Below, in pieces: positions 16,701 through 49,449 of a stretch of DNA of 64,000 nucleotides. Under the pieces are notes generated by a model. The model was not told where the DNA came from, made no database searches, and was given only the letters and a program-made list of their open reading frames with translations. How positions within the stretch are numbered: the stretch's first letter is position 1; each line of letters opens with the position of its first letter. The stretch is from a virus, in the IMG/VR virus record IMGVR_UViG_3300042448_001704, positions 24,776-88,775 of that record; one strand, 5' to 3'. The translations under genes were made by a program, and so were the position numbers.

Positions 16701-17535
16701 GGTAGTAACCAGAGCAACAGATGCTGATAACAATCCATCAGGCGAATTGGCTAATGGCGACTTCTGCTTCGTAACTGGTGGCTCAACTAATGGTGGATAC
16801 GGATACATCAATAGTTCTTCTGCAAATCCAATTGTTATTGGAACTGACGATGTTACGTACGCAGTATTTAACGCAGCTCAAATTGTAACTGGCGGTGCTG
16901 GTCTTGCTTTTACTGGAAATGTTCTTGATATCGGCACTGCATCAGTTAGCAGAATTGTTGTCAATGCTAACGACATCGATCTTGCTTCTGGTATTGCGAC
17001 AATCGGAACCTATCAATCAGTAACTGTAGATACATATGGCCGAGTAACTGCTGGAACAAACCCAACAACGCTTTCTGGATACGGCATCACTGACGCAGCG
17101 CCAATCAATAACGCATCATTTACGGGAACATTCTCTGCTCCTTCTGGAACTATCACTAGCACGATGATTACGGATGGCACAATCGTCAATGGTGACATCA
17201 GTACTTCAGCCGCAATTGCTCTATCAAAACTTGCTTCAGGAACGTCTGCTCAAGTAATTGTTGCCAGCAGTGCTGGTGTCCCAACATATGTAACACTTTC
17301 TGGCGATGTCACCATCTCGGATACGGGTGTTGCCACAATTCAAGCCGACTCAGTAGCTTTAGGGACAGACACAACAGGTTCGTATGTAACATCCCTTGTT
17401 GCAGGAACTGGTATAACATTAACCAACAACTCTGGAGAAAGCGCCACTCCGACAGTTGCTGTAACGGCAAACACTTATGACGCATATGGTTCCGCACGGA
17501 ATCTTGAAATTAAATTCCTTATGGAGGTTATGTAA
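13735..17535 (+). CDS. Long tail fibre protein with internal repeats
   Basis: 1266 residues, the largest fibre. The N-terminus (GARIQLKRGLAAQWTASTTVLLSGEIGYETDTDKFKIGNG) is the tail-attachment module seen in many phage fibres. The shaft has recurring units: TATPTVAIGQ-type modules, ANDFETTL...PTADRTI modules at three places, and a tandem ELNILDGVT array (about 16,066-16,300; at least seven copies). It ends without a clear chaperone domain. Internal repeats allow length change by recombination, a usual route to host-range shifts. Confidence 0.8.
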   Translation: MAGARIQLKRGLAAQWTASTTVLLSGEIGYETDTDKFKIGNGTSLWTSLPYFNGNLTGSNLNDLADVTITSAANGDFLRWNGTAWINDAVNLSTDTVGDYVGSLVAGTGVTLANNSGEGATPTVTVDTSVIQARVANVTDTEIGYLDGVTSAIQTQLDTKSPTNSPTFTGTVTLPDNTVALGTKTSGDYVASLVAGTGVTLTNNSGETATPTVAIGQAVATNSNVTFNDVIVSGNLTVSGYTTSINTEILTVDDNVIILNNNVTTAPTENAGIEIERGTSPNVRVLWNETTDKWETTNDGTTYGNIVTTADSGTVTSAMITDGTIVNGDINASAAIALSKLASGTSAQVVVADASGVPTYATLTGDVTISNTGVTTITANSVSLGTDTTGDYVQNLVAGTGVTLTNNTGESATPTVAIGQSIGTGDSPTFTGLTINGASVVFEGATANDFETTLAVTDPTADRTITFPDATTTVVGTDTTQTLSNKTLTTPVINGPTITATGQTPVIHGILLPATHNIIFEGTTDDDFETTLYVVEPTADRTVSLPDATTTLVGKDTTDTLTNKTLTSPKINEDVALTASATELNILDGATLSTTELNYVDGVTSAIQTQMDLKSPLASPTFTGTVTVPDNTIALGTKTTGDYVATITGGTGVSSTAATTGEGTTHTLSIGQAIATTDSPTFAGLTVNGASVVFEGVTANDFETTLTVTDPTADRTITIPDATGTVALTSDVTTHANLTEAHGATGAVVGTTNTQTLTNKTLTSPKINEDVALTSTATELNVLDGITSSTAELNILDGVTATAAELNILDGVTATAAEINTLDGITSSVSELNILDGVTSSAAELNILDGATLTTTELNYVDGVTSAIQTQIDAKAPTASPTFTGTVTLAADPASALQAATKQYVDNVVSGVNFHASVVAATSGNLAGTYSNGTSGVGATLTKATNGAIGTIDGATVVVGNRILLKSQTDAKENGIYIVTAVGSVSAPWVVTRATDADNNPSGELANGDFCFVTGGSTNGGYGYINSSSANPIVIGTDDVTYAVFNAAQIVTGGAGLAFTGNVLDIGTASVSRIVVNANDIDLASGIATIGTYQSVTVDTYGRVTAGTNPTTLSGYGITDAAPINNASFTGTFSAPSGTITSTMITDGTIVNGDISTSAAIALSKLASGTSAQVIVASSAGVPTYVTLSGDVTISDTGVATIQADSVALGTDTTGSYVTSLVAGTGITLTNNSGESATPTVAVTANTYDAYGSARNLEIKFLMEVM

Positions 17536-17894
17536 TGGCATTGACACAAAAGCGACTTGCTGGTCCCGCGCAGTTAACGGCATCTTCTGCTGTTTACTAC
17601 ACGGTTCCAGTCAGCACAACGACAATTGTTAAACAGATTATTTTGACAAACACAACAGCATCGGCCAAAACCGTAACCGTACGCCTGAAGCCATTGGGTG
17701 TTACTGAAGCAGCAACCCACGACATCGTTAGCGCAATGTCCCTTGCAGCAAATGAAACCATGTCCTTTAACTGTTCATTAGTTTTAAACAACAACGGATC
17801 AACAGCAAGTGCTACGAATAGTGATCAATTGACTGCTCTTTGCAGTTCTGCTACTTCTGTTAATATAACCGTGGTTGGTGTAGAAGAGGCATAA
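17535..17894 (+). CDS. Small fibre/tip protein
   Basis: 119 residues, starting in a TAATG overlap. N-terminal MALTQKRLAGPAQL is a recurrent opening in actinophage minor tail proteins. The rest is an immunoglobulin-like strand pattern (TTIVKQIILTNTTASAKTVTVRL ... NETMSFNCSLVLNN). Likely a structural fibre component. It overlaps the next start by one base. Confidence 0.6.
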   Translation: MALTQKRLAGPAQLTASSAVYYTVPVSTTTIVKQIILTNTTASAKTVTVRLKPLGVTEAATHDIVSAMSLAANETMSFNCSLVLNNNGSTASATNSDQLTALCSSATSVNITVVGVEEA

Positions 17895-18604
17895 TGGCTG
17901 GAATGGTTCGCTACCCTGCGGCTAACGCAATGGCGTCATTTATTGATGCTCCAGATCCTGTTTATGGAACAGGGTCTGATGGTGATGCAACCCTTGATGG
18001 AACTACAACCGTTTTGAGCATGGCACCGTCGTCTAGTGTTTATTCAATGACGCAAGATTTGTATTTTAATAACTTGATAATCAATGCTGGCGTTACATTA
18101 AAACCAAACGGTTACAGAATATTTGTAAAGAATTTATTAACTTTTGGTGGAAACAACTCAACAATTGGTTTCACGACTGGATACGCAACTAGCGGATCAA
18201 TCTTTCAAGGCGGAGCCGCCGCCACTGCTGTCACGCACAGTCTTGGTGGATCAGCAACTGGTTTTACGGCAACTGCACCAACCGCGGGTACTGGCGGTAG
18301 CGCATACTACACAATTCCACGACAAGCAGTTCAGGGATACTCTATAACAGCGTCAGGAGGCCCTACATGGCTTCGTGGGGGTGCTGGTGGCACTGCGCAG
18401 GCTGGTGGGGCTGTAATCATCCTTGCAGCTCGTTACATTGCGGCTCCACCTTCAGGGACTGGATACATTAAAGCTCCAGGTACAGCACCTGCGGGTGGTG
18501 GAGTTATTTTAATTGTTTCATCTGCAGCCACTTTACCTGCTGGCGTCTCTACAGATGTAACAGGTCAAAACGCTGGAACAGTGAATTACATGCAGTTGGT
18601 GTAA
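17894..18604 (+). CDS. Glycine-rich tail protein
   Basis: 236 residues. The N-terminal region (DPVYGTGSDGDATLDGTTTVLSM) and the shape YFNNLIINAGVTLKPNGYRIFVKNLLTFGG match the start of the following His-rich protein (YGNGADGDVTISGTVTLTSDKNYNSLTVPLGTFLYTAGFRVFVK). The two are tandem paralogues in their first 80 residues. The C-terminus is Gly/Ala-rich beta sequence (AGGTAQAGGAVIILAARYI). Probably a fibre or tip subunit. Confidence 0.65.
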   Translation: MAGMVRYPAANAMASFIDAPDPVYGTGSDGDATLDGTTTVLSMAPSSSVYSMTQDLYFNNLIINAGVTLKPNGYRIFVKNLLTFGGNNSTIGFTTGYATSGSIFQGGAAATAVTHSLGGSATGFTATAPTAGTGGSAYYTIPRQAVQGYSITASGGPTWLRGGAGGTAQAGGAVIILAARYIAAPPSGTGYIKAPGTAPAGGGVILIVSSAATLPAGVSTDVTGQNAGTVNYMQLV

Positions 18605-18605
18605 A

Positions 18606-20027
18606 ATGGCGGGAATTCAAAAATCTGGTTCGTTAGTAAAAGTACAGCGCGCAGGAAATGATCAGCTTTATGGAAATGGCGCTGATGGTGATGTGACAAT
18701 CTCTGGAACAGTCACATTAACTAGTGACAAGAATTATAATTCTTTAACCGTCCCATTGGGAACATTTCTATACACCGCCGGCTTCAGAGTATTCGTCAAA
18801 ACGACAGCCGTCATTAACGGTGTTGTCGGTGTTGCAACAGTCACAGGAAACTCTGCTGGCGTATCCAACGGCACCATCACTAGTCCTGGATCTTTAATAT
18901 CAACAGGAACAGCACCAGGCCACACCAACTCTTCAATTACATACCGTTTAGGTGGTGAAGGCGGAGGAGCAACTGCTCCAGGGACTTCAGTTCTTCCTTC
19001 TTTTTTAATTAAAAAATTTGAGGCTTTAACTGGAACAATAATTGATGCCACATATGCGTCTACACCTATTGCGCTTGCTGGTGGTTCAAAAGGAACAACA
19101 GGGACAGTCGGAACAACCACCCCGATTGTTACGGGAACATGGCCCGGGAAGTCCGGTACCGCAGGTTCAAACGGTGGACACCCAACAAATGGCACAACTG
19201 TTGGTGCAGCAGGCGGTAAAGGTGCTACAGGCGCTGATGGAACAACAACTGGTGCCACCACTGGCGCAGGTGGTGCAGGTGGCGCTGGCGCTGCAGGTGG
19301 CGCAGTGGTTATTTTGATTGCTAAAACAATCACAGGAACCGGAACAGTTGCTTCTCTCGGGATGATTGGTACTGTTGGATCTGCTGGTGCTACAGGAAAC
19401 CCTGGAACCGCAGGCGCAGCAGGCGCGGCCGCCCCTAACTACACGGTTACTCCGCATTCAGCTTCACCAACGCATCACCATACACCGAATGGACATGTGC
19501 ATCCGCATGTGCATACACACCCACATCATACTACTCACCCACATCATTTGGTGTACCCACATCATCACGTAAACCATACGCATACGGTGCATCCGCATCA
19601 CCACTACAACACCGGTTATTCCGACATACATGACCATACCCCTGGTGGGCACCATCATGTGGGTCATCACCATACGACCTATAACCACCACCATACACCA
19701 GGTGGGCATCACCATACACCAGGTGGGCATCACCATACACCCAACGGACATGCGCATCCACATAGTCACGTACAAAGTCATTCACATCATGTTGCCAATC
19801 CAACTATTCATTATGCAGGTGGTGCAGGCGGTGCAGGCGGTGCAGCTTCTCCTGCGGTGACGGGTGGAACAGGAAAACGCGGTGGTGCAGGCGGTGGCGG
19901 ATCAATAATTGTTCTTACTGAAACGACACCATCTGGGCTAAACTATGATGTACGCTCAGGTACGACGGCAGATTCTGATACTTTTTCAGGTTCTTCTGGA
20001 ACGACCTACATACTTTTAAACGCCTAA
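18606..20027 (+). CDS. Histidine-rich tail tip/fibre protein
   Basis: 473 residues. After an N-terminal domain shared with its upstream neighbour comes a Gly/Ala collagen-like stretch (about 190-250). A His-dense segment follows (about 290-390; repeated HxH and HHHTPGG units, roughly 19,461-19,790). HxH clusters coordinate iron in the T4 long-fibre tip and zinc elsewhere, so a metal-bound fibre needle is plausible. The C-terminus returns to GAGGAGG beta sequence. The long open frames on the opposite strand here are by-products of the CAT/CAC codons. Confidence 0.7.
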   Translation: MAGIQKSGSLVKVQRAGNDQLYGNGADGDVTISGTVTLTSDKNYNSLTVPLGTFLYTAGFRVFVKTTAVINGVVGVATVTGNSAGVSNGTITSPGSLISTGTAPGHTNSSITYRLGGEGGGATAPGTSVLPSFLIKKFEALTGTIIDATYASTPIALAGGSKGTTGTVGTTTPIVTGTWPGKSGTAGSNGGHPTNGTTVGAAGGKGATGADGTTTGATTGAGGAGGAGAAGGAVVILIAKTITGTGTVASLGMIGTVGSAGATGNPGTAGAAGAAAPNYTVTPHSASPTHHHTPNGHVHPHVHTHPHHTTHPHHLVYPHHHVNHTHTVHPHHHYNTGYSDIHDHTPGGHHHVGHHHTTYNHHHTPGGHHHTPGGHHHTPNGHAHPHSHVQSHSHHVANPTIHYAGGAGGAGGAASPAVTGGTGKRGGAGGGGSIIVLTETTPSGLNYDVRSGTTADSDTFSGSSGTTYILLNA

Positions 20028-20040
20028 AATTGGAGACATC

Positions 20041-20268
20041 ATGGAATTTGAACTAACGGCAGAACAAAAAATAAGTGCTTTGAATAATGTCAAAATACAA
20101 GTTATCAATGAAATGTATTCAATGATTTTGTTTCTTGGTCTTGATCCAGATACTTTTGATTCATCAACATGGGTGCACGACGACACCCCAACAGGTAATG
20201 AGGCACGACTGATTTCTCTTATTTCTACCGTTGCTATGGTTAATACAAAGATTGCTGCACTGTCATAA
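20041..20268 (+). CDS. Small member of duplicated pair (copy 1)
   Basis: 75 residues: an Ala/Asn helix, then LGLDPDTFDSSTWVHDD, then a helix containing ISTVAMVNTKIAALS. It resembles the 79-residue protein at 30,174-30,413 (GIDPDDLDYTTF ... ISRLCEGLKIIDTKLGS). Each is followed by a large paralogue, so small plus large form a module present twice. Good ribosome site (TTGGAGACATC). Function unknown. Confidence 0.65.
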   Translation: MEFELTAEQKISALNNVKIQVINEMYSMILFLGLDPDTFDSSTWVHDDTPTGNEARLISLISTVAMVNTKIAALS

Positions 20269-20283
20269 TTTTAAAAGGTATAA

Positions 20284-21384
20284 ATGAGTGATATCTCAAC
20301 AATAGACACTTCCCTGTATGAATACTATTATTTAGTTGATACTCAAGAAGATTTTAAGCTATATACAAGAACGCCTAATGGTGATACAGAATTTACTGAT
20401 TATAATGTATTTTCTATAGATGAAAAATCAATATTAGCGTTTAAGAAAAATATTAAAAGGCCTTTAATAAATTATAGTTATTTTTTAAAAACAGAAGATA
20501 ATGAATATGTTATAAATTCATTAGACTATGAACAATATATAACACTTATTTCACAAAATAATTTTTATTCTAAAAGTCTTTATACAATAATGAATTTTGT
20601 TCCTGCTGAAAATCATAGAGCAGTAGTTCATAATTTAATTTTGCCATATGATACTAGATGCGATACATCAACTTTTTCTTTTATTCCGTATCAAATTTAT
20701 GATGGAGTAAAGACCACGACTAACGATCCAACAAGGTTAAATGTTTCAACAATTGAAACACATACACCACTCATGACATCTACTGGTATAAGTGCAATTT
20801 CATTAACAGTAGTATCAAATATAGAAACTTCTTTTCGTGATTGGCCAACGGTTACACGTAGTGCAAAAACAATTATGGGTGTAATGAAACTTCTAATTGA
20901 ATGGGCTTCACTGTTAGATGCCCCTTTCAATAGTTCTGATGAACTCCCGCAAGATGCAAAAAATTTTATTGATTCTTTAAAAATACCACAAGCAGTTCTT
21001 GATGAGATATCAATAACACAAGAAGATATGCCTCTTTATAGGTATTTAAAAGGCATACCCAATTCGCGTCATGGATTCATAGAACAAGAAGAATTATCGC
21101 CTCTTTTTGCTGAATGGCTTTACAAGCAAATGATGTTTAGAACCCTTAACTCAATGGCTTTAAATCATCCCGATACTCCAAATTTTCCAGAAGAAGTGCT
21201 TAACTTGGAAAAAGCAAAAATAGAAGCAATTATTTATGGTGCCTGCGTCCTGTATGGACTAGATTATGAAACAGCAACACCTGACCAAATTATCAGTTCC
21301 CTTCCTCTTGAATCCGAAATATATCAAGTAGAAACTATTAAAACCGTCAAGGATGCAATAAACAATCGCAACGCATACCTGTAG
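20284..21384 (+). CDS. Large member of duplicated pair (copy 1)
   Basis: 366 residues. The region of about 200-290 (IEWASLLDAPFNSSDELP, LKIPQAVLDEI, YRYLKGIPNSRH, LSPLFAEWLYKQ) aligns by eye with the reverse-strand protein at 29,462-30,172 (REWSFMVEEPFNSDHPM, LEVPLGLLHEI, ARYLKGDVNHRQ, MSPKMMAWFKEKQ). The N-terminal half, around a YNVFSIDEKSILAFKK segment, is specific to this copy. It lies between the His-rich fibre and halogenase genes. A fibre-assembly or modification-partner role is possible but not shown. Confidence 0.65.
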   Translation: MSDISTIDTSLYEYYYLVDTQEDFKLYTRTPNGDTEFTDYNVFSIDEKSILAFKKNIKRPLINYSYFLKTEDNEYVINSLDYEQYITLISQNNFYSKSLYTIMNFVPAENHRAVVHNLILPYDTRCDTSTFSFIPYQIYDGVKTTTNDPTRLNVSTIETHTPLMTSTGISAISLTVVSNIETSFRDWPTVTRSAKTIMGVMKLLIEWASLLDAPFNSSDELPQDAKNFIDSLKIPQAVLDEISITQEDMPLYRYLKGIPNSRHGFIEQEELSPLFAEWLYKQMMFRTLNSMALNHPDTPNFPEEVLNLEKAKIEAIIYGACVLYGLDYETATPDQIISSLPLESEIYQVETIKTVKDAINNRNAYL

Positions 21385-21389
21385 GAAAA

Positions 21390-22895
21390 ATGAATAACAA
21401 AATATCTTTTGCAATAGTTGGTTCTGGCACAGCAGGATTAGTAGCCGCATTAATGCTAAGAAAAGCTTTTAGAGATGCAGACATAACCGTTATCTCATCT
21501 TCTCAAATTGGGATAGTTGGTGTTGGTGAAGGATCAACAGAGCATTGGAAAATGTTTATGGAATCTTGCGATATTCCAGTAGAGGAACTAATTGTAAATA
21601 GTTCAGCGACCCATAAAAATGGAATACGATTTGAAAACTGGACTAATCATACTCCCGACTATTTCCATAGCATTGGTGGAATAGATGAAATTTTTGCCAA
21701 CGGACTTTATGCATCCTATATGGGTATGATTGAAAATAAACAATTAATTACTAATCAGACATCAAGTGTTGGATTGGTAACTAACAAAATTGGACGCAAC
21801 AATATACACAAAACAGTAAATCAATTTCACTTTGATACATATCAACTTAACGACTATTTAATGGGTATATGTTTTAATAGAATGATTAAATTTGTTGAAG
21901 GAAATGTAGATTCGGTTAATCTAGATTCTGAAAATGGAACAGTCAAATCAGTCAATGTGAATAACGGAACCATGGTTGATGCTGATTTTTGGTTTGACGC
22001 AAGTGGTTTTTCCCGCGTAATCATGAATTCCCTAGAGAATACTGAATGGGAATCTTTTTCTCCTTACCTATTGGCGGATTCTGCAATCGCATTCCCAACA
22101 GAGTCTGACCCAAATGGCCAGATACGACCATACACACGCGCCCGTGCGGCATCTTCTGGTTGGATGTGGGAAATACCAACACAAGAGCGGCGGGGAAACG
22201 GTTATGTATTTTCGTCTGCGCACATATCTGTAGATAAAGCAATAGAAGAAGCTGAGAAGATTAGTGGATACAAGGTTAAAGACAATCCACGAACATTCAA
22301 ATATGATGCTGGTTATCTAAAAAATCAGTGGGTTAAGAATTGTGTTGCCGTTGGTCTTGCAGGTGCTTTTGTTGAGCCGCTAGAAGCGACAAGTATTGGT
22401 AGCACGATAATTTTAATGAAGTCTTTAATGCAAAGCCTTTCTTCATATACTAAAGAGTCTGAAAAAATGCAGACTGCATACAACAAGATGACTAAAGAAA
22501 CAATGAGAAACATACTAACGATGATAAGACTTCATTATGTTTCCGATAGAAGAGATACTCAATTTTGGATAGATCAATCAAACATGCCAATCAATGATGA
22601 ATTGCAAGAGCTGATTGATTTATGGTCAGAGCGTCCACCATCTCGGTATGATTCATACAATCAACAACATCTAATGTTTCAAACCCCTCATCTGGCTCAT
22701 GTAATGCAAGGACAAGGACTAATACCTCCTGAACCTTCCTCAATCGCCCTAGACAGACTCAACATAAGAGATATTGTACGTGCGGAAATTGATAAAATCA
22801 GAAATTCACGACACGCACATGAACTTATTGACCATAGAGTAGGGTTAATGGAAATCAAACTTATTGACGAGGAGTACAGCAATGGAATTCAATAA
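21390..22895 (+). CDS. Flavin-dependent tryptophan halogenase-like enzyme
   Basis: 501 residues, the usual family length. FAD site GxGxxG at 11-16 (GSGTAG), WxWxIP motif at 258-263 (WMWEIP), catalytic Lys near 76 (SATHKNGIRF, equivalent to K79 of PrnA), and catalytic Glu near 332 in FVEPLEAT. All key residues are present, so it should bind FADH2 and make the hypohalous/lysine-haloamine intermediate. The substrate (free tryptophan or a protein side chain) cannot be read from sequence, and no flavin reductase is seen nearby. Start follows AGGA at good spacing. Confidence 0.85.
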   Translation: MNNKISFAIVGSGTAGLVAALMLRKAFRDADITVISSSQIGIVGVGEGSTEHWKMFMESCDIPVEELIVNSSATHKNGIRFENWTNHTPDYFHSIGGIDEIFANGLYASYMGMIENKQLITNQTSSVGLVTNKIGRNNIHKTVNQFHFDTYQLNDYLMGICFNRMIKFVEGNVDSVNLDSENGTVKSVNVNNGTMVDADFWFDASGFSRVIMNSLENTEWESFSPYLLADSAIAFPTESDPNGQIRPYTRARAASSGWMWEIPTQERRGNGYVFSSAHISVDKAIEEAEKISGYKVKDNPRTFKYDAGYLKNQWVKNCVAVGLAGAFVEPLEATSIGSTIILMKSLMQSLSSYTKESEKMQTAYNKMTKETMRNILTMIRLHYVSDRRDTQFWIDQSNMPINDELQELIDLWSERPPSRYDSYNQQHLMFQTPHLAHVMQGQGLIPPEPSSIALDRLNIRDIVRAEIDKIRNSRHAHELIDHRVGLMEIKLIDEEYSNGIQ

Positions 22896-23646
22896 AAAAG
22901 TGAAACCTGGTCAAGTAAGAATAACACCAGAAGACAATCGCTTAATGACAATGCCCCCATATCTTAATGGTCCAACAAGCATGCCTAAATGGTACAGAGC
23001 ATTAAGCAAGTCTCGTGGAATGAAGAAGTGCGCAGCAATAAACGACTATTTGTCTCTGGGGATGACAATGCCTCTTTGGAGCAATATCTTTTTTAGACCG
23101 TCTCCAGAAGGTAATTTTTGGGAATCACGAATTGAAAATATGCAACCCCCTCTTCGCAACCTTCAAATTGATGGTTTCAATTATGAACAACATGGGCAAT
23201 GTCCAATAACTGGAGTGCGCAAAATTGAAAATGCACAAATTCCTAAAATAGTAACTCCTTGGAGAATAGAAACAGCACCAGGTTGGTCTTGTTTGTTTCT
23301 TCCAGTTCTATGGGAACCAAGCAACGACTATGATGTTCTTCCAAGCATTGTGCATACTGATTTTTATCACACTGTAAACATTGTTTTAAATATAAAAACA
23401 AATACCGATTTTGTGATTCCATATGGAACATCGATGTATCACATTATTCCATTTAAAAGAACAAGTAATTTCAAAGAAATTAAATTTGAAGATGAATCAC
23501 GTTTTAAGTATGTTGATGTTACTGGATTTGGATCTGGATTCTTAATGCCAAGCACTGGAACAGCCGGACCATATAGGCGCGCCAGACACAAAATTGATTT
23601 AGGGTTAGAAAACAAAAAATCCAAATGGTGGAATTTTAATAAATAA
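22882..23646 (+). CDS. Conserved phage protein, possibly DUF6065-like
   Basis: 254 residues, starting inside the halogenase gene (ATG 22,882 after GAGGAG). The segment VTPWRIETAPGWSCLFLPVLWEP, with VHTDFYHTVNIVLNI and IPYGTSMYHIIPFKR, resembles what I recall of DUF6065-type proteins in halogenase and oxygenase clusters. The memory is not checked. It contains a HxD (HTD near residue 154) that may or may not be metal-binding. Overlap with the halogenase gene implies a shared pathway. Confidence 0.55.
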   Translation: MEFNKKVKPGQVRITPEDNRLMTMPPYLNGPTSMPKWYRALSKSRGMKKCAAINDYLSLGMTMPLWSNIFFRPSPEGNFWESRIENMQPPLRNLQIDGFNYEQHGQCPITGVRKIENAQIPKIVTPWRIETAPGWSCLFLPVLWEPSNDYDVLPSIVHTDFYHTVNIVLNIKTNTDFVIPYGTSMYHIIPFKRTSNFKEIKFEDESRFKYVDVTGFGSGFLMPSTGTAGPYRRARHKIDLGLENKKSKWWNFNK

Positions 23647-23692
23647 AACAAGGTATTGTCTTGTTTGCAATAAAGAAATATAGTTGTTTATT

Positions 23693-24274
23693 ATGAATGA
23701 AATTTTTCCATCAATCTGGGTCTATAGCCAGATATTTCAAAATTCGCAGCTAGTAATTGATTCGCTAGAAAAAGCGATAGATGAAAATGTTTTACTTAAT
23801 TGGGTTTATGCAAGTACTGGAAATCATCAAACTGATGGAAGTGTGAAAAACCCTTACAGGAGCAATAAGACCATCTCTCTGCCAAACGATATTAATACTG
23901 CCGATGGTTCCGGAAATCTTGATTCATTTATTTTTAATCAGGTAACAGAACTAACTAATGAATATTCGTCTCATTTTGGTTTAGGGGGAATGAAAGACGA
24001 AGGATATTCTGTTTTAAAATATGTTGATGGGGCGGAATATAAACAACATTTTGATTGTGGCGGGGATCACAAAGATCGAGTTGCTTCAATGGTTCTGTAT
24101 TTGAATGATGATTACGAGGGTGGGGAACTTGAGTTTCCATTTTTTGGAATCAAATACAAGCCCTCTGTCGGTGATGTGATTTTTTTCCCTTCTTCCTATA
24201 CTTTTGCCCATATTGCACATCCAGTTACGAGTGGAACAAAGTATGCTCTCGTAACATGGTTGGCCTATGAATAA
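23693..24274 (+). CDS. 2OG-Fe(II) oxygenase, prolyl-4-hydroxylase-like
   Basis: 193 residues from ATG 23,693 (an upstream TTG at 23,684 is less likely). The double-stranded beta-helix fold is visible. The metal-binding HxD is at 119-121 (QHFD), the distal His at 176 (AHIAHPV), and the 2-oxoglutarate-binding basic residue is Lys183 (HPVTSGTK) in place of the common Arg, acceptable in P4H proteins. ELEFPFFG and the Asp-rich GDVIFFPSS strand match the family. Expected to hydroxylate a protein side chain. The stop overlaps the next gene by about eight bases. Confidence 0.82.
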   Translation: MNEIFPSIWVYSQIFQNSQLVIDSLEKAIDENVLLNWVYASTGNHQTDGSVKNPYRSNKTISLPNDINTADGSGNLDSFIFNQVTELTNEYSSHFGLGGMKDEGYSVLKYVDGAEYKQHFDCGGDHKDRVASMVLYLNDDYEGGELEFPFFGIKYKPSVGDVIFFPSSYTFAHIAHPVTSGTKYALVTWLAYE

Positions 24275-24848
24275 TGTAGACACATTCCGCCAAAACAATT
24301 TTGTCTACCTTGGGAATATTATTTCACAAGATCTTGTTTCTGCCATTTCTGGATACGCCCTCCTTCAGGAAACATACGCTTTTACTCCTGACACTGAACA
24401 GGTAATAAATGCCCACGCTGTGTATTCAGACTTTTTAATGGAGTCACTATTGGTTCAGTACAAACCGATAGTTGAAGAAGCAACTGGTTTGTCCCTTCTG
24501 CCAACTTATTCTTTTTATAGGGTTTACAGAAGAGGTCAAGAACTGGTTCCACATATTGATAGACCGGCTTGCGAAATATCAATGAGTGTCTGTTATGACT
24601 TTGACTATATGGGTAAAGATTACGACTGGCCACTATATATGGAAGACGATCCGCTGGTTATGAAACCGGGCGATGCGGCTATTTACCGCGGTATGGACTT
24701 AAACCACTATCGGCCAATATTTAATGTTCCTCAAAACTCATACCATATTCAGGCTTTTTATCATTATGTTGATGCAAACGGTCAATATGCCGAATATGCA
24801 TATGATAAAAACAAAAACTCTCATCTGAAAGTAATAGAAACAAAATAA
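24267..24848 (+). CDS. Second 2OG-Fe(II) oxygenase-like protein
   Basis: 193 residues beginning in the overlap with the previous oxygenase. A HxD at 96-98 (PHIDRP) and a distal His at 147 with Arg149 (NHYRPIF), with the strand pattern between, match a cupin-type 2OG-Fe(II) enzyme of a different subfamily from its neighbour. Preceding residues RVYRRGQEL are typical before the HxD. Substrate unknown. Co-expressed with halogenase and P4H. Confidence 0.68.
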   Translation: MNNVDTFRQNNFVYLGNIISQDLVSAISGYALLQETYAFTPDTEQVINAHAVYSDFLMESLLVQYKPIVEEATGLSLLPTYSFYRVYRRGQELVPHIDRPACEISMSVCYDFDYMGKDYDWPLYMEDDPLVMKPGDAAIYRGMDLNHYRPIFNVPQNSYHIQAFYHYVDANGQYAEYAYDKNKNSHLKVIETK

Positions 24849-24849
24849 T

Positions 24850-25140
24850 ATGTTTTTTAAGAAAATTATTTCCGCCATTAAGACCATGAGTTCCAAAGAT
24901 TACTGGACACGGGTTAACACCGTTGAAGCGTGGGGTTTTTCTACCAAGATTGCCATTATTTTTCCTGGTCTACTGTTGGGGAAGCAATTTTGGTGGCTCT
25001 ACATCTTTGCTATCGTTTCCAGCGTGGCTCTTATTTGGACTTCCACGAAGAAAACTCTTCCAACAATTATTTTGTTTAATGTCTTGTGGGTGATACTCGC
25101 AAGTTTGTCAATTATTAAACACTTTTGGTGGTTTGGCTAA
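24850..25140 (+). CDS. Small membrane protein
   Basis: 96 residues with two or three hydrophobic segments (about 37-55, IAIIFPGLLLGKQFWWLYIF; 58-68; 74-90) and a basic N-terminus. It sits one base after the second oxygenase. May anchor or accompany the modification cassette, or be independent. No family recognised. Confidence 0.6.
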   Translation: MFFKKIISAIKTMSSKDYWTRVNTVEAWGFSTKIAIIFPGLLLGKQFWWLYIFAIVSSVALIWTSTKKTLPTIILFNVLWVILASLSIIKHFWWFG

Positions 25141-25184: not shown

Positions 25185-25592
25185 ATGGAACGATTCTGGT
25201 ATGGGGCAACCCTTAATAAAGTAATTGATGGGGACACCATCGAGTTAATGGTTGATCTTGGCTTTAATGTTCATCACAAAATCCGCGTTCGCCTATACGG
25301 TGTGAATACCCCAGAATCACGTACTAAAGATTTGGCCGAGAAGGCTATGGGGCTGAAAGCTAAACAATTTACTCAAGAATGGTTGACAAACCATAAGTGG
25401 GTATTTGTTAACACCATCCCAGACAAGAACGATAAATACGGCCGAGTCTTGGCTCGCATATTTTCTTCCGATGATATTAACAACCCGACTACTGCCTGCC
25501 TAAACATAGACATAATAGAATCTGGACTAGCCAGAGAATACTATGGCGTTGGCGACAAAACTTGGGATGAATATAAAAAGGAAACAAAGTGA
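25185..25592 (+). CDS. Thermonuclease (staphylococcal nuclease-like)
   Basis: 135 residues, the typical SNase-domain size, with no signal peptide, so probably intracellular. Active-site residues line up: Asp-rich VIDGDTIE at 13-20, Arg36 (RVRLYGVNTPE), Glu44, and Arg87 in KYGRVLARI. Ca2+-dependent cleavage of DNA or RNA is expected. May degrade host DNA or process phage DNA. It has a leaderless promoter and overlaps the next ATG by one base. Confidence 0.85.
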   Translation: MERFWYGATLNKVIDGDTIELMVDLGFNVHHKIRVRLYGVNTPESRTKDLAEKAMGLKAKQFTQEWLTNHKWVFVNTIPDKNDKYGRVLARIFSSDDINNPTTACLNIDIIESGLAREYYGVGDKTWDEYKKETK

Positions 25593-25957
25593 TGTCAGAA
25601 GAAAAATCAATATTCAGTATGATGATGGCAGGTATGCCAGTAAGAATCATGGACAGAACCGAAGCTTTCCAGCACCCTCTTGCTCCCGAAGAAAAAGAGC
25701 TGGCGGACGCCCTTGTTGGGATTGCCGAAAGATATGGCAAGTTCAATGAAGACAAAAAAGGAATCTGGGCAGGCTACGACGATGCTTCTAGTAATACTGT
25801 TGCAAGAATTGGTGTTAAGTGCGCAAACTGTGTTTTGTATATGGGTGATGGTCAATGCCGTATAATCCTTCAAACTGTTGAGCCTGAAGGAAAATGTAGA
25901 TTTGCTGTTATTCCTGATGGTGTCGTGCAAGCGACAATGAATAACCAGATTATTTAA
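25592..25957 (+). CDS. Cys-cluster protein, HiPIP-like motif (copy 1)
   Basis: 121 residues from ATG 25,592 (GTG at 25,589 also possible). The C-terminal half carries CANCVLYMGDGQCRI and EGKCRFAVI: C-x2-C, then Cys, then Cys spaced as in high-potential iron-sulfur proteins (C-x2-C-x8-C-x11-C). A related pattern appears in the protein at 26,740. The first 80 residues are helical and acidic. Possibly a 4Fe-4S protein, or a zinc-binding structural protein. Function unknown. Confidence 0.6.
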   Translation: MSEEKSIFSMMMAGMPVRIMDRTEAFQHPLAPEEKELADALVGIAERYGKFNEDKKGIWAGYDDASSNTVARIGVKCANCVLYMGDGQCRIILQTVEPEGKCRFAVIPDGVVQATMNNQII

Positions 25958-25969
25958 TAAGGAAATAAA

Positions 25970-26740
25970 ATGACATTTTTTAATGAACTATTGGGGGAAA
26001 TTAAAGGTTTTAGGTTTGAGCAAGACCTCAAAGCTCTTGGCAAACCAATAAGACCTAGAGGTCCTGATATTCCGTTAGACGGTGATGGTGATGGTTTCGT
26101 TGTAGATCCAATTACTGGAGACGACAATATTCCTTTTGTTCCCGATGTTGTTCCAAGGTCAATATCAATTAGAAAAAACCACAAGCCGGCACCAGCGATG
26201 GTTGATAAGTGGCAAAAAGACTTAGAAGACATGACACCTGTCTGGCGCGAAGATCCAATGAAAGCAGCTGATGGGTCATATTACGACTGGGAATGGGCTG
26301 ATGAAACTGTCTACAAACTTAGTCAAAATCCAGATGGTTCTACACTTTCCAAATATGACTTAGAGGGTATAAAGGCTCACTACAAAAAAGAAATTGATGA
26401 CCATAATCGCCGTGATCCAGAGAATAAGAGCAAATCTGAATTGGCTGAATCGCAAGCAGCGCTTGATGAGGTTCAAAAAATGATTGACGATAAGCCTCAA
26501 ACCGACAAACGAACTCCTGATCAAAAGTTAGATGCACTATTTTTTCAAACAAGAAAAGATAAAACTGGCCCTCCTGGAAAACAAGTCAGAACAAGAGAAA
26601 ATGACCGTCAAATACAACAAGATGCTGACAATATAAAATTTCTTCAAGAGCAATTAAAGCGCTTTGAGAAAGACCCAGAAAAGACAAAGCTAATCAACGA
26701 ATCAATATCTCACCTTCAAGAATTCAAGAAGAAGAAATAA
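25970..26740 (+). CDS. Acidic protein with N-terminal tag and DGDGDG loop
   Basis: 256 residues. Residues 1-17 contain the tag MTFFNELLGEIKGFRFE, similar to the starts of the next two proteins. It is followed by LDGDGDGFVVDPITGDDN, a Ca2+-loop-like motif often seen in phage head-associated proteins. The C-terminal 130 residues are highly charged coiled coil (KFLQEQLKRFEKD). Probably a virion internal or scaffold-like protein. Function unproven. Confidence 0.6.
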   Translation: MTFFNELLGEIKGFRFEQDLKALGKPIRPRGPDIPLDGDGDGFVVDPITGDDNIPFVPDVVPRSISIRKNHKPAPAMVDKWQKDLEDMTPVWREDPMKAADGSYYDWEWADETVYKLSQNPDGSTLSKYDLEGIKAHYKKEIDDHNRRDPENKSKSELAESQAALDEVQKMIDDKPQTDKRTPDQKLDALFFQTRKDKTGPPGKQVRTRENDRQIQQDADNIKFLQEQLKRFEKDPEKTKLINESISHLQEFKKKK

Positions 26741-29461: not shown

Positions 29462-30172
29462 TTATATTTCTATTTCTCTCAACATTTGAGTAGTTTCCTT
29501 AGGGGCAAACTCTTGTTGTTTTTCTTTAAACCAAGCCATCATTTTCGGAGACATTTGAGGGTAAGTCTCTGAAAGTTGCCTATGATTCACATCGCCTTTC
29601 AGATATCTTGCTAAATGCATATCTGGCAGTGAATCTATTTCATGAAGCAAACCTAAAGGAACTTCCAAGATATCTAGCGCAAGTTTTGAATATATTGCCA
29701 TTGGGTGATCCGAATTAAAAGGTTCTTCTACCATGAATGACCATTCACGCATATTTTTTAAAAGTTCAATTATTGATGTTCCAAACCATATTGTGCAAGG
29801 GGCACCGCTGGTGTCAAACAAATCGTCTGTGGCAAATGTATTTCCATCTATTGTGTTTTGATAGAACGCCACATATGTAATCACAAAATGAGGGGCAGCA
29901 TCAATTACTTTTACTCCAGATTGTATATCTAGTATTCCAAGAGGCATTCCTGTATAAGGAGATGTTTCTCCCATATACATACCTTCATCATGGTATGGAG
30001 TGTGAACTGTCGGTAATTCCATGCTGTAAGTCAAAGAATCACATCTGCCAGAATACGGAGTATTAACACCATCAACTACGAGCAAACTTTTATGAAGTAT
30101 GAAACGACCACGGTTGGCTGGTGATGCATCTCTGAAAGTTACCCAATCGGGGAGAGATTGGCTGTGTTCCAT
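29462..30172 (-). CDS. Large member of duplicated pair (copy 2, reverse)
   Basis: 236 residues. The C-terminal half (residues about 140-236: EWSFMVEEPFNSDHPM, LEVPLGLLHEIDS, ARYLKGDVNHRQL, MSPKMMAWFKEKQQE) is paralogous to the protein at 20,284. The N-terminal half is different and contains PYSGRCDSLTYSMEL and a GEWH-like stretch, so the shared domain is linked to different heads. It follows its small partner two bases later. Points against the + strand genes around it. Function unknown. Confidence 0.65.
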   Translation of the reverse strand: MEHSQSLPDWVTFRDASPANRGRFILHKSLLVVDGVNTPYSGRCDSLTYSMELPTVHTPYHDEGMYMGETSPYTGMPLGILDIQSGVKVIDAAPHFVITYVAFYQNTIDGNTFATDDLFDTSGAPCTIWFGTSIIELLKNMREWSFMVEEPFNSDHPMAIYSKLALDILEVPLGLLHEIDSLPDMHLARYLKGDVNHRQLSETYPQMSPKMMAWFKEKQQEFAPKETTQMLREIEI

Positions 30173-30173
30173 T

Positions 30174-30413
30174 TTATGATCCTAGTTTTGTGTCAATTAT
30201 TTTAAGGCCTTCGCACAGTCTGCTTATGGTCTGGTTATATGTCCACAACGAGTTAGAAGTTTCCAGAGTATTAGTAAAGGTTGTGTAGTCAAGGTCGTCT
30301 GGGTCAATTCCTCCCCTTATACACCATGTGTATAATTCGGCAAACATGCGAGAACGCAAGGCTTCCAAAGCTGCGGTTTTATCATCCGTATTTAAAAATT
30401 GTTCTAATCCCAT
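30174..30413 (-). CDS. Small member of duplicated pair (copy 2, reverse)
   Basis: 79 residues, with helices flanking GGIDPDDLDYTTFTN, the counterpart of GLDPDTFDSSTW in the protein at 20,041. Same gene order as copy 1 (small then large). No family recognised. Confidence 0.6.
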   Translation of the reverse strand: MGLEQFLNTDDKTAALEALRSRMFAELYTWCIRGGIDPDDLDYTTFTNTLETSNSLWTYNQTISRLCEGLKIIDTKLGS

Positions 30414-40154: not shown

Positions 40155-40526
40155 ATGACACGACACCTATATTCGCCATACATGAGCCAAATGCTAGACA
40201 GGTTCCACAAGGATTACGACAAAAGAATAGATTGCGACCCGGGCTGGTACGACCTCATAGAAAAAATTGACGTAGAACTACGGGTTATTGATCCCGAATA
40301 CACGATTTACCAGATAAAAGAGAAGTTTGGCGCTCTCCGTTTCTACTTTGACACAGAAGAACCACCAGAAACACGCACTTACATGCAAGAAATAGTGTCG
40401 GCATATGAACTGATATCTAAGCGTGTCTGCGAGATAACAGGAACAGAGGGGATTCTCATGAAAAAGGGATCACAAATGAAAACTCTCAACCCGTTATACG
40501 CCCCAGAAGGCTTCATTGAGTGTTAA
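40155..40526 (+). CDS. Conserved phage protein (QIKEKFGxLRFY type)
   Basis: 123 residues. The motif CDPGWYDLIEKIDVEL ... IYQIKEKFGALRFYFDTEE is widespread in phages of many hosts and of unknown function. First gene of a rightward operon, overlapping the start of the next (GTG). Confidence 0.65.
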   Translation: MTRHLYSPYMSQMLDRFHKDYDKRIDCDPGWYDLIEKIDVELRVIDPEYTIYQIKEKFGALRFYFDTEEPPETRTYMQEIVSAYELISKRVCEITGTEGILMKKGSQMKTLNPLYAPEGFIEC

Positions 40527-41308
40527 CAGATAATAGAAAGTTCACTTTTTATCTAGGAACAGACAATCCAGCATGGCTAAAGCATGCCGATATACCCCTC
40601 TTTGTTTCTCATTATCGGATCAAAAGATACGTCAACATGCCAAGGGCAATTTGTAACTGGTCATTGGACAGCGGCGGATTCACACAACTATCCATGTTTG
40701 GTGGATGGACAATAACAGCTTCAGAGTACGCAAATGCCGTAAGACGGTATAAAGACGAAATAGGCATGATGGACTGGGCTTCACAGCAAGACTGGATGTG
40801 CGAAGACGCAATGCTTGCAAAGACTGGGTTATCTATAGAAAAGCATCAGGAACTAACAGTTAACAACTATCTAGATTTACAGATGATTGCAGACGACCTA
40901 CCCATTGTTCCTGTCATACAAGGCCAAACACTAGATCAATATCGCCGGCATGTAGACATGTTTAACAAAGCCGGAATAGACCTACTTAGCAAAGACATAG
41001 TTGGTATTGGCTCTGTCTGTAGAAGGCAATCAACCAACGAAATAAAATCAATAGTAGAACCCTTGACACTAGATGGTTTAAAACTACACGGATTCGGCAT
41101 GAAAAGAACAGGACTCCGACAAGTAGGACACGCAATGACCAGTAGTGATTCAATGGCGTGGAGTTTCACCGCGCGCAGAGGAAACATACGGCTCCCCGAA
41201 TGTACCCACAAAGCAATAAAGTGTTCACACTGCTTGACATACGCCCTAAAATGGCGCAAATTAGTACTACAAGATTATTTAGATTCTTTCCCAACAGTAA
41301 CAATCTAA
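40520..41308 (+). CDS. DpdA-like guanine transglycosylase
   Basis: 262 residues, GTG start. The TGT-fold signatures resemble phage DpdA proteins that exchange guanine for 7-deazaguanine in DNA: FYLGTDNPAWLKHADIPLFVSHYRIKRY, the SLDSGGFTQLSMFGGW segment holding Asp, the IVPVIQGQTLDQYRRHVDMFNKAGIDL stretch, and GIGSVCRRQSTNEIKSI and KLHGFGMKRTGL. Near the end are two Cys with His (CTHKAIKCSHC), a zinc site. Queuosine/preQ0 synthesis genes are not in the window, so the base must come from the host or from other genes. Confidence 0.8.
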   Translation: MLTDNRKFTFYLGTDNPAWLKHADIPLFVSHYRIKRYVNMPRAICNWSLDSGGFTQLSMFGGWTITASEYANAVRRYKDEIGMMDWASQQDWMCEDAMLAKTGLSIEKHQELTVNNYLDLQMIADDLPIVPVIQGQTLDQYRRHVDMFNKAGIDLLSKDIVGIGSVCRRQSTNEIKSIVEPLTLDGLKLHGFGMKRTGLRQVGHAMTSSDSMAWSFTARRGNIRLPECTHKAIKCSHCLTYALKWRKLVLQDYLDSFPTVTI

Positions 41309-47124: not shown

Positions 47125-48645
47125 TTATTTCAGGTACGAACCTGTGGCATTGAAGTATGTCCGTTGCCAAGGTCGTGGCCATTCTGTGCGTGGCTTCATT
47201 CCTGCATTCAGTTGCTCAAGAACTTCTACGCCTTGAGTAACGTTCTTGCGAACAATGACACGACTCTTGATGCATTGATTAATACAATCCATCGCAAGTA
47301 AATCAGAATATCCAGTTCCGTCTCCGTGAATCTCGCCGTCCGTAATAAATACGATTGGGCTTGATGAACGATTACGCTTTGATATTGCGAATGCAAGGGC
47401 CGGTCCGTCCACTCCGTTGTTTCCAGGAAGTGTAGGAAGTGATTGAACCATCTTCCCCTTGTCGGCAAGAATCCAAATGTTTGGAGCACCTGCCGTGGTG
47501 GATGATGAATAAACAACAACCGTAGCGCCTGGCGACTTCTCAACAATGCGAACAATGTCTTCCGTCTTCAATTGCATGGAACCCGAACCATCGATCACAA
47601 CAACACCGCCGTTGCCTTTACGCCATTGATCAAAGACCCTCTTTTCAGGATCAGTCAATGCGTTAGTCAATCTGCGAGGATTGCGACCGAATGCACTAGG
47701 ACGACGCTTCTTACCGAGACCGCCAGGAGCGACACGATTAAGAAGTGACTCACCAAACTTTAATGGAACCCAACTATCAACACCACCACTGCGACGATTA
47801 TTAACAGTATTCTGTTTTTTAACATCATCAGGTGAAATAGGTGCTGGTTTGTTTGCTTTTCCTTTATTAGTTTTAGCGGCCGGTCCATCTGCATCTTCAC
47901 TTTCGTGCTTCTCTTTATGATCAACACTACTTGCTTCGTTTTCGTTCTCTTCCTTTTTCGGTGGATTGGCGAAACGATCCAACAATTCTGCAAGACGTTC
48001 TGTTGTAGAAAATCCGACTGGAGACAAATTGTTTTTCGGGTCAATAGCTGTATCGCTAAGACGACCGTACTTGTCTGCTTTCTTTAATTCTTTTTCAAAC
48101 TTCTTGATAATTGCTTTTAATGAATCGCCCCATTCACGATTGTGACGACGCACACCTGTAAGGAAAGGTTTATTTCCCCCACTGCATGCTGTCGCAATCG
48201 CACCATAAACAGCACCTGTCCAGTCGTCATTCTCTGAAACTTTTTCGCCGGCTGCGAGTTCGCTTCCATCAGAAAGATGGGTAGCAACATCAAAACCTGC
48301 TTTGTTGCAGAGAAAGTTGACACGCATTTCTTCAACGGCGCGCAATGCATTTTCGCTTGCGATCCCACGGTTTAGCCATTCTAAAAAATCGCTTCCAGGA
48401 GATACACGAGCGTGCATCATTTCATGCGCACGAATTGCACGAGCCGTTTGTTCTTGCGAAACAGGTACGACCATCTTTTTACCAACAATGTCGGTATAAG
48501 GAAGGCCGCGAACTGGTGCACATGATTCAATACTCCACGCTCCACCATCTTTGGAGGAGTCCTTTCTTCCCAACATTTCGGGAAGAGGGAGGACTGCCAC
48601 CTCGGAAGGATCGAGCACCTTGTTAGGTGTTGCGAGCATCGTCAT
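47125..48645 (-). CDS. VWA-domain protein, partner of MoxR
   Basis: 506 residues. A C-terminal von Willebrand A domain with the MIDAS motif DGSGSM near residue 350 (VVVIDGSGSM) and VFITDGEIHGDG follows a charged linker (about 230-275). The N-terminal half has a HEMMH motif near 74 and a RAVEEMRVN stretch of a zinc-metalloprotease-like appearance. Overlaps the MoxR gene by one base (TAATG). VWA plus MoxR pairs act as chaperone or remodelling systems. Confidence 0.8.
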   Translation of the reverse strand: MTMLATPNKVLDPSEVAVLPLPEMLGRKDSSKDGGAWSIESCAPVRGLPYTDIVGKKMVVPVSQEQTARAIRAHEMMHARVSPGSDFLEWLNRGIASENALRAVEEMRVNFLCNKAGFDVATHLSDGSELAAGEKVSENDDWTGAVYGAIATACSGGNKPFLTGVRRHNREWGDSLKAIIKKFEKELKKADKYGRLSDTAIDPKNNLSPVGFSTTERLAELLDRFANPPKKEENENEASSVDHKEKHESEDADGPAAKTNKGKANKPAPISPDDVKKQNTVNNRRSGGVDSWVPLKFGESLLNRVAPGGLGKKRRPSAFGRNPRRLTNALTDPEKRVFDQWRKGNGGVVVIDGSGSMQLKTEDIVRIVEKSPGATVVVYSSSTTAGAPNIWILADKGKMVQSLPTLPGNNGVDGPALAFAISKRNRSSSPIVFITDGEIHGDGTGYSDLLAMDCINQCIKSRVIVRKNVTQGVEVLEQLNAGMKPRTEWPRPWQRTYFNATGSYLK

Positions 48646-49364
48646 TAGACACCAACCTTGTCAATTGCAATAGCATCAACGAATGATTGCGCTTGCTGTC
48701 CAAGAATCATTTGAGCCGCGCGCTCATCTCCAAGAGATTTACGCAACTTGTCAAATGCGTAGAATGTACGCAAACTAATGCGACGCTCTCCTGCATCGGC
48801 CATGCGGACTGCATAACCTCGGAGGTCATGAGACAACAATGCGATTGCACTTGGATGTGGTTGATTAATACGAATGGCAACTGGAAAACGGTCACGCAAT
48901 GCTTCAGGAAGTTCACGCATGTCTTCAACGTTTGTCGTCATAACAACGCTGAACCCGTCCTTAGGTGCGATCGTGCGACCGTCCGATGGACGCTCCCACT
49001 TTGCACTGTCAGGTGTGTCGGTCATTGCCAGGAGGGTTGCGAAAACATCGCCACCTGCCTTGTCAATTTCGTCAACTACGAGACGACCACCGCGGATGCC
49101 GTCACCTTGCCATGCTTTTACGGCTGAGCCGTCTTTCCATGACCACTCATTTCCTGATGGAATGTAGTGTCCGGTAACATCACCATTGGTCATGTCTTCT
49201 GTGCAGATCAAACGCCATGCGCCTGCTTCAATATCTCCGTAATGGAGTCCTGCGTAGGTTTTGCCAGTTCCTGGCGGCCCAAACAAGATAAGACGGTCAA
49301 TGCCTGCATTGATTGCGTCTTGAACATCTTGCCAACATTGTGGCAAGTTTTGTACTTCGGTCAT
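48645..49364 (-). CDS. MoxR-type AAA+ ATPase
   Basis: 239 residues from ATG 49,364; earlier in-frame starts lie in the upstream region. Walker A GPPGTGKT at 29-36, Walker B LVVDEID at 95-101, sensor TTN and the LRDRFPVAIRI arginine-finger region show a complete AAA+ domain. The substrate is the neighbouring VWA protein or its target. Two tandem promoters precede it, each with the ACACACCC word. Confidence 0.85.
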   Translation of the reverse strand: MTEVQNLPQCWQDVQDAINAGIDRLILFGPPGTGKTYAGLHYGDIEAGAWRLICTEDMTNGDVTGHYIPSGNEWSWKDGSAVKAWQGDGIRGGRLVVDEIDKAGGDVFATLLAMTDTPDSAKWERPSDGRTIAPKDGFSVVMTTNVEDMRELPEALRDRFPVAIRINQPHPSAIALLSHDLRGYAVRMADAGERRISLRTFYAFDKLRKSLGDERAAQMILGQQAQSFVDAIAIDKVGV

Positions 49365-49420
49365 TTTTAATTCTCCTTTTAGAATTAGTAACTGCTGACG
49401 GAATGTCAACAGTAAAAGCA

Positions 49421-49449
49421 AGTTTAACAGATGGGTGTGTCAACAATAA
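49421..49449 (-). promoter_or_regulatory. Operator promoter 1 (MoxR/VWA)
   Basis: TTATTG, 17-base spacer with TTGACACACCC, TAAACT. Nearest promoter to the MoxR gene. Confidence 0.55.

Follow-up and report, generated by a model that had tools for sequence, protein, structure and literature searches.

We analysed a 64,000-nucleotide stretch of viral DNA (hereafter the window), bases 24776-88775 of the 88,775-base IMG/VR virus record IMGVR_UViG_3300042448_001704, focusing on four genes at window positions 21390-24848 and on the fibre genes upstream of them. The four genes, whose calls are real, encode a flavin halogenase, a conserved protein called P2 here, and two 2-oxoglutarate (2OG)-Fe(II) oxygenases (the second one putative), and are referred to as the cassette. 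Since the portal, terminase, sheath and tube proteins are encoded upstream of the window in the same record and a baseplate J protein is encoded inside the window, the phage is, on this gene content, contractile-tailed. An earlier note, made from the DNA letters only, had described the cassette as an overlapping gene run. This holds for the halogenase and P2 (32-bp overlap) and for the two oxygenases (8-bp overlap), but a 37-bp gap separates P2 from oxygenase 1. The median ratios of nonsynonymous to synonymous substitution rates (dN/dS) were 0.058 for the halogenase, 0.073 for P2, 0.080 for oxygenase 1 and 0.050 for oxygenase 2 (from six pairs only), indicating that all four genes are maintained by purifying selection.

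The halogenase gene (21390..22895, +) encodes 501 a.a., of which residues 8-450 match PF04820 with an E-value of 1.8e-105. In a family alignment of 34 halogenases, the FAD motif GxGxxG was present as GSGTAG or GSGTSG, the EPxEA segment was conserved, and GWxWxIP, Lys76, Glu329 and Glu332 were found in all 34 sequences; WxWEIP and the GxGxxG glycines count among the family invariants. The catalytic Lys and Glu of the window enzyme align with the K and E of the solved structures 6Y1W and 6FRL. These features bear out the complete flavin halogenase that the earlier note had recognised: judged by its sequence, the enzyme is a PF04820 flavin halogenase with intact catalytic residues, and halogenating activity is predicted. 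The NCBIfam matches to LodB, QhpG and GoxB were weak (E 5e-6 to 1.5e-5) and fell far short of the respective cut-offs; they would fit an alternative in which the PF04820 protein acts on the fibre as an oxygenase or a cofactor-building monooxygenase, like QhpG and LodB, which act on other proteins. We regard this as highly improbable, because any flavin-superfamily member would be expected to score at that weak level and because all 34 sequences conserve Lys76, the Glu region and WxWxIP. The absence of a flavin reductase, noticed before for the window, extends to the whole 88.8-kb record, where neither PF01613 nor PF03358 was found; the reduced flavin (FADH2) for the halogenase would come from the host.

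The best solved-structure matches by sequence were BrvH (6FRL) and Xcc4156, which we take to be 6Y1W; both are bacterial, group C-like flavin halogenases whose natural substrate is unassigned. We examined the tryptophan-binding motifs of halogenases, as defined previously (PMC8269204). The Trp4 motif was found in 0/34 halogenases, whether sought in its group A form, in a relaxed version of that form or in its group B form, the Trp1 region reads EGSTEHW in 34/34, and the HxF stacking motif of Trp2 is replaced by HSI or HSV in the alignment rows inspected. Like the window enzyme, BrvH lacks Trp4, and according to PMC8269204 halogenases without this motif, BrvH among them, do not interact with tryptophan. 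The window enzyme differs from BrvH and Xcc4156 in its Trp1 (EGSTEHW) and Trp2 (HSI/V) regions as well. On the Trp1, Trp2 and Trp4 motifs, a free-tryptophan halogenase of the PrnA/RebH/PyrH type (groups A and B) was rejected, and the absence of these motifs weighs against a tryptophan pathway.

The second gene, P2 (22864..23646, +; phrog_7084/DUF6065-like, phrog_7084 E 1.8e-23), starts with TTG and has an in-frame ATG at 22882. Its AlphaFold2 (AF2) model, with a predicted local distance difference test score (pLDDT) of 87.9, matched dUTPases in Foldseek (best E 1.2e-4), which led us to reject P2 as a third oxygenase. Among 38 P2 homologues, 20 matched Pfam dUTPase and five matched DUF6065 (PF19541) weakly. 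P2 thus shares the fold of the dUTPase superfamily, with extra N- and C-terminal parts, and its profile can be aligned to dUTPase motif III, but it lacks the catalytic Asp of that motif, the position being His or Asn in 37/38 sequences. Because the fold has lost this residue, P2 is most likely a binding or presenting protein. Its best matches in BFVD were unnamed or uncharacterised phage proteins, and a bacterial counterpart sought via DUF6065 was discarded, as no halogenase relative adjoined the DUF6065 gene in 20 bacterial-genome regions. Separately, in another locus, an additional and divergent P2-like gene (L084:1276-2004) lies upstream of the fibre genes and appears to retain the Asp at the dUTPase catalytic position.

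The earlier note had credited both oxygenases with intact HxD...H sites, and the homologues agree. Oxygenase 1 (23684..24274, +), of the prolyl-4-hydroxylase-like superfamily (PF13640, E 4.6e-16), has the triad H122/D124/H176 in 27/28 homologues and a distal basic Lys or Arg at 186 in 28/28. The 2OG-Fe(II)-like oxygenase 2 (24267..24848, +) matched phrog_2954 (E 3.5e-44) and, more weakly, phrog_3531; its HxD...H triad, H96/D98/H147, is kept in 6/6 homologues, and it has no Pfam match (E 0.01). Since phrog_3531 matches both oxygenases, at different parts of the profile, and a 427-a.a. protein of S-SCSM2R matches both oxygenase profiles, the two predicted enzymes probably act as a pair. Ferrochelatase, the database label of phrog_2954 and phrog_3531, was rejected for 24267-24848 for want of Pfam support. 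The label, which is widespread among phages, looks like a misannotation of a 2OG-oxygenase-like family; 156 phage records match oxygenase 2.

The adjoining fibre genes are fibA (17894..18604, +), encoding a conserved Gly-containing fibre-like protein of 236 a.a., and fibB (18606..20027, +), encoding a 473-a.a. fibre that we propose as the substrate. The earlier note had put the halogenase right after the His-rich fibre gene; in fact two genes (20041-20268 and 20284-21384) lie between fibB and the halogenase. FibB consists of a Gly-rich framework, modelled by AF2 with pLDDT mostly above 90, and an HxH-rich insert at residues 285-396 (19458..19793, +), which has no Trp in the window copy and is modelled with low confidence. 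A His-rich insert was present in 97 of 98 distinct FibB proteins of at least 350 a.a., some of them cut by contig ends. The pooled inserts contain 24% His, 14% Gly, 9% Pro, 8% Asn, 3.6% Tyr and 1.1% Trp, with about 10 HxH motifs per insert, whereas His accounts for 0.5% outside them. Neither fibA nor fibB had a match among 50,697 phage records, and the FibB fold had no PDB match at E up to 10.

We evaluated the linkage between the cassette and these fibre genes from both sides. First, viral contigs were scanned with the halogenase, and the best 80 loci (43-100% identity) were combined with three P2-derived loci and the window locus, giving 84 halogenases in 43 groups at 95% identity. Homologues of the fibre genes 17894 and/or 18606 lay within the fetched flank in 41/43 groups; of the two exceptions, L015 is cut off 1.9 kb upstream, and in L066 they are absent from the 3.5 kb covered. 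Every group representative except L066 has P2 next to the halogenase. In L062 and three near-identical relatives, P2 and the halogenase have changed places and the enzyme block runs in the opposite direction with respect to the fibre genes, with all parts still together. Second, to escape circularity, the converse test was anchored on fibA, a non-enzyme, using two scans (one with the full alignment and one led by a divergent member) that each kept the best 80 matches. Of the 141 loci obtained, 102 had at least 6.5 kb downstream of fibA. The halogenase and P2 were present in 102/102 of these and an oxygenase in 100/102; in groups at 95% identity, the counts were 47/47 for the halogenase, 47/47 for P2 and 45/47 for an oxygenase. 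For comparison, any relative of the window halogenase occurs in 78/50,697 phage records. A chance neighbourhood of fibres and cassette is rejected by this test, and the cassette, for which the earlier note had suggested a search in other phages, is not a one-off.

The cassette genes match those of the window in almost every locus, while only a minority of the other neighbours do (for example, 3/13, 2/14 and 1/15; at most 7/11). As the flanking genes mostly differ, the linkage is not merely due to shared ancestry of whole genomes. The cassette and one His/Gly-rich fibre type therefore travel together in dozens of uncultured aquatic phages in IMG/VR, and sequence data, as far as they reach, establish the fibre-cassette linkage. 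Among contigs of metagenome-assembled genomes (MAGs), the cassette occurred only in MAGs labelled Actinomycetota and Gammaproteobacteria, labels that do not fix the host.

A similar setting was found around a distant halogenase clade. VirX1, the biochemically characterised viral halogenase of cyanophage Syn10 with a solved structure (PDB 6QGM), corresponds to Syn10 CPUG_00131 (1271 bits over all 530 residues). The Syn10 locus runs from Gly-rich fibre genes through a halogenase, VirX1 and a P2 homologue (1.4e-18) to further genes, including relatives of both oxygenases. VirX1 thus shares PF04820 and the gene setting of fibres, P2 and oxygenases with the window halogenase; they have only about 27% identity (tblastn) and fall into separate clades (100/100 split, long branch), and Syn10 differs in its two tandem halogenases and longer gene run after P2. 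P-TIM40 and S-CREM1 have the same order as Syn10, P2 included, and P-RSM6, S-WAM1 and S-SZBM1 have fibres, a halogenase and 2OG oxygenases in the same general layout. Virion proteomics exists for S-CREM1 (PMC9964418) and for S-SZBM1, in which a long-tail-fibre protein went undetected (PMC9146016). In S-SRM01, the halogenase sits between a tail-fibre gene and a gene annotated as the gp37-gp38 adhesin tip complex. Either halogenases became associated with fibres on two occasions, or a standing fibre cassette exchanged one halogenase for another; both possibilities argue for a functional link between fibre and halogenase. As a separate observation, S-CREM1 carries a nine-gene run annotated as 2OG oxygenases or JmjC (L244:12616-18106) soon after its halogenase and P2.

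Taken together, the purifying selection, the intact catalytic residues, the invariant linkage to one fibre type and the recurrence with a distant halogenase clade suggest that 21390-24848 is probably a protein-modification cassette dedicated to the adjoining receptor-binding fibre genes 17894-20027, with the fibre as its substrate. The earlier note had offered fibre or capsid proteins, or a metabolite pathway, as targets. The fibre is the best supported, by the linkage, the inverted loci and the distant clade; nothing points to the capsid, and the absent free-Trp motifs speak against a tryptophan pathway.

Phage halogenases have been described differently in the literature. The S-CREM1 halogenase was described as a chlorotryptophan maker for antibiotic protection, with the oxygenases as repair, modification or lipid enzymes (PMC9964418). 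The conversion of free Trp to chloro-Trp for antibiotic protection also appears in PMC2984593, and a metabolite view in PMC10452541. For a different jumbo cyanophage cluster with 2OG oxygenases, a halogenated secondary metabolite or capsular decoration was proposed (PMC7824862), and VirX1 has a large accessible active site and accepts many small aromatics in vitro (PMC8407142). The metabolic-gene descriptions (PMC9964418, PMC2984593 and PMC7824862) and the VirX1 activities would fit a set of auxiliary metabolic genes for producing a small molecule that is both halogenated and hydroxylated, or for remodelling a host metabolite, its place beside the fibres reflecting late expression or modular block exchange. 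We consider this unlikely, because the linkage to one fibre type is invariant across differing backbones, the Pfam and PHROG matches of the block include no scaffold-making genes, the free-Trp motifs are absent, and a P2 devoid of the dUTPase catalytic Asp is easier to reconcile with binding than with a metabolic step. The target of the enzymes might also be a glycan or lipid of the surface, or some other component of host or virion that serves adsorption, instead of the fibre polypeptide. The window cassette has no glycosyltransferase match, however, and PF04820 halogenases require electron-rich aromatics. Although the fused S-SCSM2R relative of both oxygenases lies among glycosyltransferase genes, and a part in decoration has been suggested for a different phage cluster (PMC7824862), we judge such a target to be quite improbable.

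Several points weigh against modification of the fibre. No modified residue has been seen, so the chemistry is hypothetical. Trp is absent from 39/97 inserts, and 2/97 have neither Trp nor Tyr, which rules out Trp as the general target within the insert and likewise any one Trp or Tyr there as a universal target. The converse test covered the best 80 fibA matches per scan, and distant fibA genes without a cassette could exist. The fibres of the marine Syn10 type are Gly-rich, not His-rich, and P2 was undetected in the P-RSM6, S-WAM1 and S-SZBM1 loci, where the layout is otherwise kept. Finally, halogenase relatives lie away from fibre genes in P-SSM2, S-PM2, S-MbCM6, S-B64 and HTVC008M; P-SSM2 and its kin are closer to the window group in the tree than VirX1 is, yet are not beside fibres.

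If the fibre is the substrate, the fibres would be made first, and the halogenase, using FADH2 supplied via a host reductase, would then halogenate exposed aromatic side chains, most likely Tyr or His, and Trp where present. The two oxygenases would hydroxylate residues in the His/Pro/Asn-rich insert or in the Gly-rich framework, and P2, with its dUTPase fold but no catalytic Asp, would hold the fibre or present it to the enzymes. Once modified, the residues would adjust how the fibre tip binds metal, cross-links or binds its receptor. We infer the modified residue, the products and any host-binding role. Such a cassette would bring a novel type of chemistry to virion proteins, extend flavin halogenases to a new class of substrate and supply enzymes that halogenate proteins, and modified adhesins would constitute a layer of phage-host recognition missed by sequence-based host prediction and standard virion proteomics. 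Because halogenase genes are widespread in cyanophages, the strict fibre link offers a concrete, testable substrate where tryptophan or a metabolite was guessed.

The remaining neighbours are as follows. Just upstream of fibA lies a small conserved protein of 119 a.a. (17535..17894, +; phrog_20100). Of the two genes between fibB and the halogenase, the first (20041..20268, +) encodes a 75-a.a. protein that, by neighbourhood comparison, follows the fibre gene in most homologous loci, and the second (20284..21384, +) encodes a 366-a.a. protein with no assigned function, which is homologous to 29462-30172(-) and recurs around the cassette. There are two such pairs, each of one small and one larger protein, lying in opposite orientations at 20041-21384(+) and 29462-30413(-), and other phages repeatedly have relatives of both around the cassette. 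Downstream, a probable small membrane protein of 96 a.a. with hydrophobic stretches (24850..25140, +) has relatives in 75/102 fibA loci. Three neighbouring proteins, with gene starts at 25970, 26740 and 27104, share the N-terminal motif G[S/E]Ix[G/S][F/I]RFE (at 25994, 26764 and 27215), perhaps a head-protease site or a packaging tag. The 25589-25957 and 26740-27186 proteins contain CxxC and further Cys, have no Pfam or PHROG match, and are probably the proteins that the earlier note had likened to high-potential iron-sulfur proteins. Elsewhere in the window, DpdA (40520-41308; PF23859, 3e-88) suggests 7-deazaguanine modification of the phage DNA, and an AAA_5 ATPase beside a 506-a.a. protein without a Pfam match (47125-49421, -) resembles a MoxR-type pair. 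Upstream of the window, the same record encodes a phosphoadenosine phosphosulfate reductase-like protein (L249:5279-6415; phrog_2302, 2e-71).

Phage halogenases are already known; what is new here is the strict fibre-gene setting, which would be categorically new only if halogenated fibres were demonstrated. In the accessible literature on halogenases and tails or tail fibres, outside which most subscription papers and preprints lie, we found no proposal of fibre modification by a phage halogenase. The nearest relatives of the window enzyme among the phage records, the halogenases of P-SSM2, S-H38, S-SCSM2R and AG-345-O18 (35-38% identity), form its sister group in the tree; their fetched flanks contain no P2 and no recognised adjoining fibre gene, the fibre gene of S-H38 being about 5 kb away. 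We propose more tentatively, at slightly less than an even chance, that in aquatic phages a dedicated cassette, which includes an inactive partner of dUTPase fold, halogenates and hydroxylates a His/Gly-rich receptor-binding fibre after translation, and that VirX1-type viral halogenases natively serve fibre modification as well. As an analogy only, the jaws of nereid worms contain Gly/His-rich, metal-binding, halogenated proteins. Among phage fibres, the accessible part of PMC11705849 describes HxH motifs that bind iron in the T4 gp37 tip, and mentions no such enzyme cassette for HxH fibres. The FibB framework is Gly-rich, but FibB is likewise rich in HxH, as are other iron-binding fibres of this kind, which makes metal binding by FibB a lead by analogy.

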